Position numbers and translations under genes: made by a program
DNA from: Eubacterium sp.
Lineage (GTDB): Bacteria; Bacillota; Clostridia; Lachnospirales; Lachnospiraceae
Direction of reading: 5' to 3'
NCBI GenBank assembly: GCA_017477505.1
Contig: JAFUVQ010000013.1
Location: forward strand, 124,001 to 188,000
Length of the DNA stretch: 64,000 bases
Part shown: piece by piece, positions 253 to 3,929 of the stretch
How positions within the stretch are numbered: the first letter of the stretch is position 1
How the letters are laid out: each line of letters starts with the position of its first letter
The notes under the pieces: generated by a model
Database searches by the model: none
Told to the model about the DNA's origin: nothing
Seen by the model: the letters and a program-made list of their open reading frames with translations, nothing else

Positions 253-915
253 CTACCTGATCCTTCTGTCCAGTTTCTTGGATAGTAAATTTCCTATCCA
301 TTGCAGTACCTGCATAAGAAGCACAAGTACCGCTACTGTAATGATCATTATCCAGGTTTCATATCTGTAATATCCATATCTTATGGCGATATCCCCAAGT
401 CCGCCGCCGCCGACTACTCCGGCCATGGCCGAATAGCCGAGTATGGTTCCGAGAGAAATGGTGACTCCTATAAGAAGTGATATCTTTGCCTCTCCGATAA
501 GAACCTTTTTTACAATCGCGAATCTACTCGCCCCCATACTGATAGCCGCTTCGACAACACCGGAGTCGACTTCTTTGAGGGAGCTTTCAACCATTCTCGC
601 TATGAGCGGAGTTGCAGCCAGCGTAAGAGGTACTATGGTTGCAACCGTTCCATAGCTTTTTCCTACCAGCAGCTTTGTAAGCGGCTGGATCAGAATAAGG
701 AGTATGAGAAACGGAACGCTCCTGGTTATATTGACCATCACGTCAAATACTTTGTACAGTGGTCTGTTGGGCGCGATTCCGTTAGTATCCGATACAGTAA
801 GGAGTACACCTATAGGGAGTCCCAGTATATAGCCGGAAAATGTAGAGATCAGCACCATCATAAGGGTATCTCTCGTCCCTTCCAGCAGCATTTTTATCAT
901 TACTGAAGCTGTCAC
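253..915 (-). CDS. metI: MetI-type methionine ABC transporter permease
   Basis: A 220-residue polytopic membrane protein with about five hydrophobic helices and the EAA-loop sequence EAAISMGASRFAIVKKVLIG, the ATPase-contact loop of MetI permeases. Family members transport D/L-methionine with MetN and MetQ. The GTG start overlaps the metN stop codon by one base (ATAGTG), so translational coupling is likely. Length is normal for MetI. Its partner MetQ domain is fused to another binding domain in the first gene of the operon. Confidence 0.93.
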   Translation of the reverse strand: MTASVMIKMLLEGTRDTLMMVLISTFSGYILGLPIGVLLTVSDTNGIAPNRPLYKVFDVMVNITRSVPFLILLILIQPLTKLLVGKSYGTVATIVPLTLAATPLIARMVESSLKEVDSGVVEAAISMGASRFAIVKKVLIGEAKISLLIGVTISLGTILGYSAMAGVVGGGGLGDIAIRYGYYRYETWIMIITVAVLVLLMQVLQWIGNLLSKKLDRRIR

Positions 916-1721
916 TATATCGCTCTCCTTCCGTTAAAATCTATGACCCTGCCGTCCTCCGACTCAATTTCAAGGTCAAGTTTTCTTGTGTAGATAAGAC
1001 GCTTTGCCGCCTTTGTTTCAGGATTACTGAAAACCTCTTCCACTGTTCCCGTCTCTACCAGATGACCTGCATCCAGAACCGCAACTCTGTCACAGATCTG
1101 CTCGATGACCTTCATCTCGTGTGTTATAAGGACAATGGTGATTCCGTATTCTTTATTGATCTTCTTCAGAAGTGCCAGAATGTTGGATGTGGTTTCCGGG
1201 TCAAGCGCGCTGGTTGCCTCGTCCGAAAGAATGATCTTTGGACTTCCTGCAAGACTTCTGGCTATGGCTACTCTCTGCTTCTGTCCGCCCGAAAGCTGTG
1301 AGGGATAGACCTTAGCCTTGTCGGAAAGCCCTACCACTTCCAGATACTCCGCTGCCTTCTTCCTTGCATCCTTCTTTCTTATACCTGATATCTCAAGGGG
1401 AAATGCTACGTTATCAAGAACATTTCTCTGCATAAGAAGGTTGAAATGCTGGAATATCATACCGATATTTCGTCTTTCCTCTCTGAGCTCCCTGTCCGTA
1501 AGTTCGGTGAGCTTCTTACCCCGGACCTTTACACTGCCCGAAGTGGGTTTTTCCAGGAGGTTGATGGTTCTTACAAATGTGCTTTTACCTGCTCCGGAGA
1601 GCCCTATCACTCCGAATATTTCCCCCTCCTCTATGGAGAGGGAGATATCCGAAAGTGCGGTAAATTCTTCTTCAGCTGTTTTAAAAACTTTAGTTAAATC
1701 TTTTACTTCAATAATCGGCAT
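915..1721 (-). CDS. metN: MetN methionine ABC transporter ATP-binding protein
   Basis: A 268-residue ABC ATPase. Visible motifs are Walker A GLSGAGKST (residues ~42-50), Q-loop IFQHFNLL, signature LSGGQKQRVAIARSL, Walker B IILSDEATSALDP and H-loop ITHEM. It lacks most of the C-terminal C2 (ACT-like) methionine-sensing domain of the ~345-residue E. coli MetN, so direct trans-inhibition by methionine is less likely; control may sit in the leader instead. It lies 23 nt after the binding-protein gene and is the only ATPase visible for two permease types, though another could lie beyond the left edge. Confidence 0.95.
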   Translation of the reverse strand: MPIIEVKDLTKVFKTAEEEFTALSDISLSIEEGEIFGVIGLSGAGKSTFVRTINLLEKPTSGSVKVRGKKLTELTDRELREERRNIGMIFQHFNLLMQRNVLDNVAFPLEISGIRKKDARKKAAEYLEVVGLSDKAKVYPSQLSGGQKQRVAIARSLAGSPKIILSDEATSALDPETTSNILALLKKINKEYGITIVLITHEMKVIEQICDRVAVLDAGHLVETGTVEEVFSNPETKAAKRLIYTRKLDLEIESEDGRVIDFNGRRAI

Positions 1722-1744: not shown

Positions 1745-3427
1745 CTAGAATGGTATAACTGCTCCGTCATATGTTTCATTGATGAAATTCTTAATCTCAT
1801 CTGACTTAAGTACTTCTACAAGTGCCTTGATTCCTTCGTTATTCTCATTTCCTTCCTTAACCGCAATGATGTTAACGTATGTTTTTGCTGCTTCCGAATC
1901 TGCTGTCTCATAGGCTATTGAATCCTTGCCTACTGAGAATCCTGCCTCAAGTGCATAGTTTCCGTTAAGTACTACGAATGCTACTTCATCCTTTACTCTG
2001 CTTACCTGAGCTGCCTCGAGCTCCTGAATCTTTATGTTCTTTGGATTATCTACTATATCAAGTACTGTTGCTGTGAGTCCTGCACCTTCCTTAAGTGTGA
2101 TCACGCCGTTTGCCTGAAGGAGAAGAAGTGCTCTTGCTTCATTTGTAGTATCATTTGGAACTGCAATAGTGTCGCCGTCTGCAAGTTCATCAAGTGAATT
2201 CTTTGTTCCCGGATAAATTCCGAATGGCTCATAATGTATTCCGCCTGCTGATACTAAATGTGTTCCGTTCTCGTCATTGAAATTGTCAAGATATGGAATA
2301 TGCTGGAAATAATTAGCGTCAAGTTCTCCGCTTTCTACTACGAGGTTAGGCTGTACATAATCTTCAAATTCGGTTACTTCAAGATCCCAGCCCTTGTCCT
2401 TAAGAAGCTTTGCTGCTTCTGCAAGTATCTCGGCATGAGGTGTAGGAGATGCTGCGATTTTAATGGTTCCTTTAGCTTCTGCAGGTTCGCTCTTTGCATC
2501 ACCGGCTGTAGAGTTTGATGTAACTCCGCCTTCAACAACAAGTGTATCCTCGTAATCCTTACCATAGGTATCAAGGAGTGTTGCTTCGTAATCTGCATGG
2601 AAGAAATTCTCATTACCGAGTGACTTTATCTCGTCATTCAGCCAGTTAAGCAGTGTTTCATTTCCCTTTGAAACTGCAGGTGCTATAGTATCAAGGCTTC
2701 CGAGAGTTTCAATTCCGACTGTGTAGCCTTTATTTTCATTTGCAAATGCAATTACTTCCGTATTATCGTTTGCCCATGCAACTCCGGTTCCGTTTTCAAA
2801 TGAACTCTTGGCTGCTGCGTAGGTATCAAACTTCTGAAGCTTGATGTCCGGATTGTTCTCTGTAAGATAGGTCTCGGCGGTTGTTCCTGAGATAACTATG
2901 ACCTGATCGTCAGCACCGATATCGGAGAGGTCTGTGATCACATTGTCATCATGAGATACAACTCCAAGAGCTACATTCATGTATGGAAGTGCGAAATCAA
3001 CCTTCTCGGCTCTTTCTTCGGTTACAGTGAAGTTTGCAAGGATTATGTCAACCTTACCAGTCTCAAGGTATTCAACTCTGCTGGCTGCTTCAGTTGATAC
3101 ATAATTTATGTCAACTCCAAGATCCTTTCCGATTCTCTCTGCAAAGTAAACATCGTAGCCCTGGTAATCACCGTTCTCATCGACATATCCGAATGGGGAC
3201 TTGTCGGAGAAGACTCCGATATTAACCTTTCCGCTTTCCTTAATCTCATCCAGTGTCCTGTAAACCGCCTTGGCATCCTTTGCCTCGGTATTTGCCGCAT
3301 CAGCATTATCGGCATTTGATCCGCATCCTGTTATAAGGCCTACTGCCGTAGCTGCCGCAAGACCGATAGCTCCTATACGCTTCAACTTCTTTCCAAATCC
3401 TTCGTTTGATAATGTTCTGTTCTTCAT
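1745..3427 (-). CDS. Fused double solute-binding lipoprotein: family-3 (cystine/polar amino acid) domain plus MetQ/NlpA domain
   Basis: 560 residues, twice the normal size of a binding protein. A lipoprotein signal ends in LITGC (lipidated Cys35). Residues ~55-295 are a complete SBP_bac_3 domain (SPFGYVDENGDYQGYDVYFA, RVEYLETGKVDIILANFTVT), typical of cystine/glutamine-type receptors. After a short linker, residues ~320-560 are a complete NlpA/MetQ domain (IKIAASPTPHAEIL, ANYFQHIPYLDNF, IAVPNDTTNEARALLLLQANGVI). The operon downstream carries a MetI permease and a HisM-type permease, matching the two halves. Inferred role: one membrane-anchored receptor feeding two sulfur amino acid importers. 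The start has a usable AGAAAGAAGGAT Shine-Dalgarno. Expression is probably set by the leader peptide and hairpins between 3490 and 3793. Confidence 0.93.
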   Translation of the reverse strand: MKNRTLSNEGFGKKLKRIGAIGLAAATAVGLITGCGSNADNADAANTEAKDAKAVYRTLDEIKESGKVNIGVFSDKSPFGYVDENGDYQGYDVYFAERIGKDLGVDINYVSTEAASRVEYLETGKVDIILANFTVTEERAEKVDFALPYMNVALGVVSHDDNVITDLSDIGADDQVIVISGTTAETYLTENNPDIKLQKFDTYAAAKSSFENGTGVAWANDNTEVIAFANENKGYTVGIETLGSLDTIAPAVSKGNETLLNWLNDEIKSLGNENFFHADYEATLLDTYGKDYEDTLVVEGGVTSNSTAGDAKSEPAEAKGTIKIAASPTPHAEILAEAAKLLKDKGWDLEVTEFEDYVQPNLVVESGELDANYFQHIPYLDNFNDENGTHLVSAGGIHYEPFGIYPGTKNSLDELADGDTIAVPNDTTNEARALLLLQANGVITLKEGAGLTATVLDIVDNPKNIKIQELEAAQVSRVKDEVAFVVLNGNYALEAGFSVGKDSIAYETADSEAAKTYVNIIAVKEGNENNEGIKALVEVLKSDEIKNFINETYDGAVIPF

Positions 3428-3489: not shown

Positions 3490-3660
3490 TTCCGGGTTAC
3501 GAATTGTCCCGGAAAATGGAGGGCTTTGCACCGACCGGGTTTTAAATCCTTGTCTATATTCGCCACCCGGAAATAAAATGGCATAAAAAAACCGGGTGGC
3601 TTGATTCAGCTCCCGGGCATATGGCATAAGTATTAAAAGACGACTCATTTGTCATTCAAT
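3490..3660 (-). promoter_or_regulatory. Chain of alternative CCGGG/CCCGG hairpins (putative transcription attenuator)
   Basis: Reading the minus strand, seven GC-rich segments can pair with either neighbour. Segment 1 (3719-3731, inside the leader ORF) is perfectly complementary over 13 nt to segment 2 (3610-3622). Segment 2 also forms the left arm of a terminator with segment 3 (3592-3600), which is followed by seven T residues (3591-3585). Segment 3 pairs perfectly over 9 nt with segment 4 (3562-3570). Segments 5 (3535-3540), 6 (3508-3512) and 7 (3492-3496) continue the alternation. Pairing 1:2, 3:4, 5:6 excludes 2:3, 4:5, 6:7. This is seen in sequence; that it responds to cysteine or methionine is inference. 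It has neither T-box nor S-box consensus elements. Confidence 0.7.
3585..3617 (-). terminator. Attenuator terminator ahead of the fused binding-protein gene
   Basis: On the minus strand CCGGG and CCCGG flank an inner GCT/AGC pair with a six-base loop, followed immediately by TTTTTTT (3591-3585). It lies about 155 nt before the start codon of the transporter operon, so it would stop transcription before the structural genes. Its left arm is also complementary to a segment of the leader ORF. Confidence 0.65.
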
Positions 3661-3661
3661 A

Positions 3662-3793
3662 CTAAGGTGTTTCTGAGAGGCAGCAACATCGACGTGCCGA
3701 ATAAACACCAGCCATATTATATGCCCGGGAGTTAAGCATTCGACAGCAACACATCATCATGTTATTCACTTTAGATGTCTTTGAATTGAACAT
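3662..3793 (-). CDS. Cys/Met-rich leader peptide (43 codons) of the sulfur amino acid uptake operon
   Basis: The ORF starts at an ATG nine nt after a near-perfect AAGGAGG (3803-3809) and ~50 nt after the predicted transcription start. The peptide has three consecutive Met codons and three Cys codons at 12-17 (MMMCCC) and a second run of three Cys codons at 36-38, ending RRCCCLSETP. Runs of the regulated amino acid near a hairpin are the hallmark of leader peptides that act by ribosome stalling. Between the two Cys runs, codons 21-25 overlap the segment complementary to the terminator left arm. The operon downstream encodes receptors expected to bind cystine and methionine. A longer in-frame start at 3865 exists but would lie upstream of the predicted +1 and lacks a comparable RBS. 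Confidence 0.75.
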   Translation of the reverse strand: MFNSKTSKVNNMMMCCCRMLNSRAYNMAGVYSARRCCCLSETP

Positions 3794-3852
3794 AACTTTT
3801 TGCCTCCTTCTTGATAAAAATAATTCCGTCACGCTTTCATCAGCATGGCGGA

Positions 3853-3881
3853 ATAATATCATCATTCACCTATCATGTCAA
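3853..3881 (-). promoter_or_regulatory. Sigma-A type promoter of the leader/transporter operon
   Basis: On the minus strand a perfect -35 TTGACA (3881-3876) is separated by 17 nt from TATTAT (3858-3853), five of six matches to the -10 consensus. Predicted transcription starts near 3846, giving a ~50-nt untranslated lead before the leader peptide. Confidence 0.8.
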
Positions 3882-3929
3882 TAGGTTTAGCTATTGCAAA
3901 AATCATTCTCTGGTTATAGGTTTAACCTA

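Follow-up and report, generated by a model that had tools for sequence, protein, structure and literature searches.

In Bacillota, T-boxes and riboswitches receive most of the credit for the control of amino acid genes at the RNA level. The trp and his attenuators of Enterobacteria carry their control codons in a short ORF and use mutually exclusive protector, antiterminator and terminator hairpins. The leader described here lies ahead of a putative importer operon of a Eubacterium sp. (Lachnospiraceae), in a window of 64,000 nucleotides, by which we mean the whole stretch of DNA that was analysed. Like the trp and his attenuators, it has control codons in a short ORF and three predicted hairpins that exclude one another; unlike them, it has a mixed Cys/Met run, a Bacillota host, a promoter palindrome that accompanies most of its copies, and an antiterminator strand (A) that lies within the ORF, about 20 codons upstream of its stop codon.

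Several described leaders come close to it. The uORFC-8-2 motif upstream of cysS in Rhodobacterales has a conserved tandem pair of Cys codons together with two stems and a U-run, and ribosome-mediated attenuation has been proposed for it (PMC8632094). Compared by description only, it shares with our leader the Cys-codon uORF, the stems and the U-run, but it belongs to alpha-proteobacteria and, in the available part of that report, stands only before cysS and has no Met run. Cys-codon leader ORFs of cys/cbs operons in Mycobacterium, Propionibacterium and Bifidobacterium likewise place runs of Cys codons before sulfur genes; as far as the excerpt of that paper goes, their run is near the stop codon, unlike here, and a terminator hairpin was not found (PMC1262725). 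In bacilli, histidine leader peptides before hisS/hisZ were presented as a first in Bacillota (PMC2965389); likened by the excerpted description only, they too are a case of leader-peptide attenuation replacing a T-box in this phylum, with histidine codons in place of the Cys/Met run. Control of amino acid or one-carbon genes by a uORF is also seen, in the part of the source at hand, in ilvB of Corynebacterium, which has a terminator/antiterminator layout, and in fthC of Streptococcus; unlike our leader, the former uses Ile/Leu/Val codons and the latter a proposed effect of the initiator Met on translation (PMC11109978).

Among the literature matches listed, in a search with subscription journals mostly outside its scope, there was no published Cys/Met leader in Lachnospiraceae. 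The mechanism is of a known kind; what appears to be new, within that scope, is the mixing of Cys with Met codons, the range of sulfur genes served and the palindrome common to them. The mycobacterial polycysteine uORFs of Canestrari et al. in 2020 are, to go by the title, reportedly leaderless, a trait in which the window leader differs from them, having a strong Shine-Dalgarno sequence and about 50 nt between the predicted transcription start site and its ATG. A T-box and a SAM riboswitch were ruled out as identities by the absence of Rfam matches to either, in the window at the gathering score and in 20 leader loci at E <=0.5; these searches gave no other Rfam family for the leader either. 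NCBIfam gave no family for 30 leader peptides at E <=1, and Pfam no credible one for 57 (best E 0.008, TB domain, 2 of 57).

With a probability of about 0.84, and from sequence comparison, we propose that this leader is a trp/his-type ribosome-mediated transcription attenuator that reads the supply of Cys, and probably of Met, and controls a Cys/Met importer. In a direct sequence check, all named leader features were present on the minus strand of the window; they are given here from the promoter to the end of the operon.

3869..3885, minus strand: palindrome CCTATTGACATGATAGG over the -35 box, a putative repressor operator; a perfect site, C39:127869-127885 in the own genome
3853..3881, minus strand: promoter, TTGACA (3881-3876), 17-nt spacer, TATTAT (3858-3853); 11 of 12 matches
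3803..3809, minus strand: Shine-Dalgarno sequence AAGGAGG of the leader ORF, from the sequence
3662..3793, minus strand: leader ORF, 43 codons plus stop, MFNSKTSKVNNMMMCCCRMLNSRAYNMAGVYSARRCCCLSETP; match at E 2.7e-14 to a leader profile of 30 rows that includes the window peptide
3743..3760, minus strand: control codons MMMCCC, from the codon list and the Cys/Met enrichment in relatives
3737..3745, minus strand: region 1, UGUCGAAUG, putative 5' strand of hairpin P1; exact in 53 of 73 leaders, 9 bp with 3703-3695
3719..3731, minus strand: A1, putative 5' strand of the antiterminator, CTCCCGGGCATAT; exact complement to B1, covariation
3711..3715, minus strand: A2, ATGGC, second putative antiterminator segment; A2:B2 pairing in relatives
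3695..3703, minus strand: region 2', UAUUCGGCA, putative 3' strand of P1, from pairing and fold
3666..3709, minus strand: P2 hairpin GGUGUUU...AAACACC, which holds the second Cys run (3688-3680); -12.8 kcal/mol, weakly conserved
3610..3625, minus strand: B2 (GCCAT) and B1 (ATATGCCCGGGAG, 3622-3610), the strand common to antiterminator and terminator
3585..3616, minus strand: intrinsic terminator, stem CCGGG/CCCGG (3616-3612 with 3596-3592), then T7 (3591-3585), U7 in the RNA; -11.9 kcal/mol (z -2.85), matched by 3 of 200 shuffles
1745..3427, minus strand: fused receptor, SBP_bac_3 (cystine-type) plus Lipoprotein_9 (MetQ-type), from a domain search
915..1721, minus strand: MetN-like ATPase, scoring 346 bits against a TIGR02314 cut-off of 499.7
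253..915, minus strand: ABC permease (PF00528), MetI-like by context

The consensus promoter, the strong ribosome binding site and the 43-codon ORF with MMMCCC and a second CCC run, all of them named in the original prediction, are present as described, and a short ORF with a ribosome binding site is found between the promoter and the importer operon. The leader RNA folds with z = -4.33, which none of 100 shuffles equalled. An SD-like motif precedes 100 of the 104 leader starts among our profile matches, these starts having been picked with such a motif as a criterion. The receptor, which had been expected to bind cystine-like and methionine-like ligands, carries the domains for both in one fused protein; the predicted substrates of the operon are Cys and Met, so that the MMMCCC run matches what the operon handles.

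In the mechanism that we propose, a ribosome would translate the short ORF, whose run demands Met- and Cys-tRNA. When Cys or Met is short, it would stall on the run and cover region 1, P1 would be blocked, and A1 and A2 would be free to pair with B1 and B2 as an antiterminator, so that the polymerase enters the importer genes. Under good supply, the ribosome would reach the stop codon, P1 would form behind it and sequester A, and B1 would pair with C as the terminator with U7, ending transcription. In addition, the palindrome over the -35 box is probably the target of a repressor, which may be of the Rrf2/CymR kind. If this is true, the position of a ribosome steers RNA polymerase in these anaerobes, and the way in which gut and rumen bacteria adjust their sulfur amino acid supply would be explained.

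The strongest elements of this scheme are the strands of A:B. As originally noticed, a 13-nt segment of the ORF (A1, 3731-3719) is perfectly complementary to the left arm of the T7-tailed terminator (B1), and the fold of the A-B segment of the window has z = -6.60, with 0 of 200 shuffles equally good. To compare relatives, 104 profile matches were read and one (L166) was discarded as noise; the anchor (S/T/I)(R/Q)(A/T/V/S) was found in 91 leaders and a B1 with at least 9 of 12 matches to TTTGCCCGGGAG in 84 of these, which became 75 after removal of near-duplicates and 73 after L078 and L050 had been dropped by hand. In this alignment, 97.3% of the cells of the ten A1:B1 pairs are standard pairs, compared with 93.6% after shuffling, where the choice of B1 by similarity pushes up the paired share and disfavours compensatory changes. 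Double changes occur in 7 of the 10 pairs, and the 27 compensatory cells (4.2 in shuffled alignments; 0 of 500 shuffles as high) are an inflated count because cells are counts of sequences with shared descent. When the partner is slid by one column, pairing falls to 56.4 or 48.5%, and RNAalifold, with no structure supplied, recovers exactly the A1:B1 helix from the 73 leaders. In the A2:B2 helix, AUGGC(U):(A)GCCAU, 79.5% of cells form pairs, and at one position G-C occurs 53 times and A-U 8 times. The divergent leaders L013-L023 are outside this alignment; in a wider A1/B1 set that includes them (41 distinct combinations), 349 of 410 cells are paired versus 321.9 after shuffling (sd 4.8), and the highest of 5000 shuffles reached 340. 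From this covariation, the 13-nt complement is a strand of the predicted antiterminator. B1 is common to antiterminator and terminator, and the covarying helices make the attenuator directly testable.

The terminator is the second part of this overlap. A B1 hairpin followed by at least four T within 8 nt is possible in 72 of 73 leaders, and in 64 of these 73 alignment rows the best B1 stem contains three or more G-C pairs; shuffling gave any stem of this kind in 120 of 730 cases. The window row is missing from these 64, as a longer G-C-poor stem was picked there, and its 5-bp G-C stem was scored separately; its terminator hairpin consists of 5 bp plus 3 bp. A generic terminator scan, which accepts only loops of 3-8, found none in the window leader.

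The original prediction had extended the alternation by four more CCGGG/CCCGG segments. These exist in the window past the U-run (three by script, four by direct count), but a conserved chain was rejected, as none lies between the U-run and the gene in 59 of the 68 loci measured, while seven loci have one and one has two. The locus L074, whose receptor is 92% identical, has no CCGGG/CCCGG segments past its terminator. We read the extra segments as decayed repeats of the B-C unit. Past the terminators of L013-L015 and L017-L023, there is a second small ORF, GCGAATGCCGC-NGG-GCGGCGATGTTG, whose nucleotides are nearly fixed; it encodes RMPxGRRC with an often basic C-terminus and is similar to the CGAAUG...CGAUGU frame of the window leader, and L016 has a variant of it with a different stem.

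The peptide itself might have been the functional product, a small Cys-rich binder of metal or thiol followed by a plain terminator. Up to nine Cys per peptide (L148) and a shared motif speak for this, which we nevertheless regard as very improbable, since the motif SRAxNMAG follows the base pairing: its Ser is TCC in 68 of 69 leaders and its Arg is CGG in 60 of 62 (the reading frames downstream use CGG for 8% of their Arg codons), changes of CGG to CAG (R to Q) are answered in B (G-C 61, A-U 10, A-C 1), and the remainder of the peptide is variable.

The direction of the switch, which had been called not obvious, can be inferred from the fixed distance between the first run and A: a stall would leave A essentially free and mask region 1. 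The last Cys codon of the run is separated from the anchor Ser codon by four intervening codons in 79 of 91 leaders, by three, the minimum, in 7, by five in 3 and by six in 2. The leading edge of a ribosome is about 9-12 nt beyond its A-site codon, so that at the four-codon spacing a stall on the last Cys would end at about the start of A1 and earlier stalls would leave A1 freer; in the three-codon leaders, the stalled ribosome would extend a few nucleotides into A1. This spacing in the first place, and P1 in the second, point to the order shortage, stall, antitermination, importer on. The same hairpins could work with opposite polarity if a run-stalled ribosome masked A and caused termination. 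A is indeed downstream of the run, a stall at the Met of the conserved CRM motif would mask A, and the antiterminator is the most stable fold without ribosomes, so termination needs something that blocks it; even so, we consider this reading improbable, because the spacing of 3-6 codons stops the ribosome edge at about the start of A1, and because uptake would be shut during shortage. Stalling on Cys or Met codons had been expected to choose between two sets of hairpins, with the complementary segment placed between two Cys runs. The first run is at a fixed distance from A; the second is loosely conserved (Cys at +11 in 49%, n=70; at +13 in 37%, n=70; at +14 in 37%, n=68).

The antitermination-on-shortage reading also relies on the protector hairpin P1. 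In the window, P1 (3745-3695) encloses A1 and A2 with 9 bp (-18.5 kcal/mol, z -3.13, 0 of 200 shuffles). When the ribosome was modelled at the stop codon, P1 was the predicted fold of the window RNA up to the edge of B1; when it was placed on the last Cys codon, P2 and P3 were predicted, the 3' part of A1 being already paired with the start of B2. The ribosome-at-stop model gives at least four expected pairs between region 1 and the sequence after A2 in 50 of 73 leaders, versus 19 of 73 when the latter is shuffled. The helix of regions 1 and 2' has at least 7 bp in 31 of 73 leaders (8.2 expected from shuffles); when the 58 nt past the run are folded, 63 of 73 leaders have six or more of the ten A1 nucleotides in pairs, and the Arg codon in region 1 is CGA in 64 of 66 leaders, versus 3% of downstream Arg codons. 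The inner P1 stem showed no covariation in the 73 leaders (2 double changes versus 1.3 by row shuffles), a swap test of regions 1 and 2' was near neutral (mean percentile 0.46 for all leaders and 0.42 for 20 diverged ones), the mean z of the P1 segments was only -1.12, with 18 of 73 below -2, and for the copy ahead of metY in the own genome P1 was not predicted with the ribosome at the stop codon (0.02 pairs). Support for the predicted P1 is weaker than that for A:B. The P2 helix, with 65.5% of cells paired in the 73 leaders, is weak.

Two observations concern the end of the leader frame. The sequence CGAUGU (Arg-Cys) follows A2 in 38 of 73 leaders, at a shuffled expectation of 1.4%, often directly ahead of the stop codon (e.g., L168, L089, L165). 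In L263 (G846:C38:12710-12820), the frame ends right before A1, where a terminating ribosome would mask A; this could be an assembly error.

Which amino acid is read can be judged from the position of the codons. Cys is found at position -5 in 93% of the 73 leaders, Met at -8 in 60% and at -7 in 47%; a Met codon is among the seven codons ahead of the last Cys in 66 of 73, and the Met of the CRM motif (position -3) is present in 70 of 73. Since the CRM Met is so near A, a ribosome stalled on it would cover A and tip the switch towards termination, and sensing of Met would thus require stalls at earlier Met codons; the window's run opens with its three Met codons, where most ribosomes would be caught. 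It is quite possible that the attenuator senses cysteine only and that the Met codons are incidental, or needed for the RNA. The nearly constant Cys at -5 and the position of the CRM Met, too close to A to help, argue for this, as do the leaders of cystathionine synthase-like genes (mean C 3.9, M 1.7; n=9) and of LCM-type methyltransferase genes (mean C 4.0, M 0.8; n=4), which are mostly Cys; the frequent Met codons before the last Cys argue against it, as do the MetN-type leaders, in which Met exceeds Cys (mean 4.7 versus 2.0; n=3). We rank sensing of Cys as the safer claim and dual Cys/Met sensing as the bolder reading. As Met and Cys codons share one run ahead of one switch, dual sensing would amount to an OR gate, a compact two-input sensor if both count, through which a shortage of either amino acid opens genes of import and synthesis. 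Because of the CRM Met codon, our confidence in both the attenuator and the OR gate is slightly lower.

The leader is real and recurs beyond the window. Receptor relatives were found in 54 of 61 genomes of the genus (E <=1e-60, many via the MetQ half only) and in 182 of 397 genomes of a family sample (E <=1e-70), and upstream of receptor loci there are short Cys/Met-rich ORFs with the common pattern CCCRMxxSRAxxMAG. Leader profiles were made from 30 peptides, including that of the window (A1), and from 57 peptides (A3). In the own genome, the former matched the window, a copy on contig C23 (E 2.4e-7) and an implausible third sequence (E 1.29); the C23 copy is followed 111 nt later by a gene that exceeds the TIGR01326 cut-off (metY, O-acetylhomoserine aminocarboxypropyltransferase, a sulfhydrylase). 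At E <=0.001, profile A1 matched in 36 of 61 genus genomes; the family sample gave 39 genomes out of 397, and an order sample 13 out of 295, six of the latter in two other families; profile A3 matched in 13 of 381 genomes of a class sample, eleven outside the family, and in 5 of 378 of a phylum sample, one of which (L272) was noise when read. Overall, 103 of 104 matches were plausible.

The original prediction had proposed to search upstream of homologous receptors for conserved Cys-run ORFs and covarying stems, and both were found. In the receptor-chosen set (the best 80 of 558 receptor relatives, 77 of them with at least 400 nt upstream), a leader matched at E <=0.01 in 55 of 77 loci, a measure of the regularity of leader and receptor and not an independent discovery, because the profile was built partly from close kin of these loci; the reverse strand, shuffled sequence and within-gene controls each gave 0 of 77. 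Conserved Cys runs, covarying stems and these 55 loci lend support to ribosome-mediated attenuation as first suggested. The spread is patchy, as shown by the family sample and the 22 receptor loci without a match; five of these (L181, L198, L204, L208, L216) have a Cys/Met-rich ORF by eye. The genes downstream of the 103 leaders, sorted by motif with representatives checked against NCBIfam and Pfam, are O-acetylhomoserine sulfhydrylase-like (36), receptors, fused or not (33), cystathionine synthase-like (9), LCM-type methyltransferases (4), MetN-like (3), cysK (1), metK (1) and others (16), some of the last being receptors with a variant motif. The four LCM-type, SAM-dependent methyltransferase genes (L097, L152, L153, L155; PF04072 for L152) are not themselves obvious sulfur genes.

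Most leaders share the promoter palindrome, which would add a second regulatory layer at the putative operator. Of the 103 leaders, 78 have the pattern CCTATTGAC-N3-5-TAGG in the 150 nt before them. Among 485 control windows located 400 nt or farther upstream, the looser CCTA-N6-12-TAGG was found in 4; a control with one such window per locus, available in 71 loci, gave 0. We suggest tentatively that the CCTATTGAC-N4-TAGG palindrome, the Cys/Met leader and the overlapping hairpins may form a portable cassette that wires a sulfur amino acid regulon, with a Cys/Met OR gate, in Lachnospiraceae and some other Bacillota families. The own genome has three perfect sites, two of them at leaders and the third (L250, G000:C39:122080-122096) before a GCS2-domain gene without leader, beside ABC transporter genes; its four one-mismatch sites are at chance level, because the reversed pattern gave five at <=1 mismatch. 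This leaderless operator and the repeat-like segments past the window terminator would fit regulation by the operator alone, with the attenuator a relic in this genome. We give this little credence: the window copy retains its Shine-Dalgarno sequence, open frame, perfect 13-bp complement and U7, and the relative with 92% receptor identity (L074) retains the same parts.

One gene above the Rrf2 cut-off (C23:84628-85014) is on the contig of metY, about 2.7 kb from it, and it is our guess that its product binds the palindrome. The window also has a strong hairpin (3820-3858, -16.1 kcal/mol) close to where the transcript is predicted to start, perhaps a 5' stabiliser.
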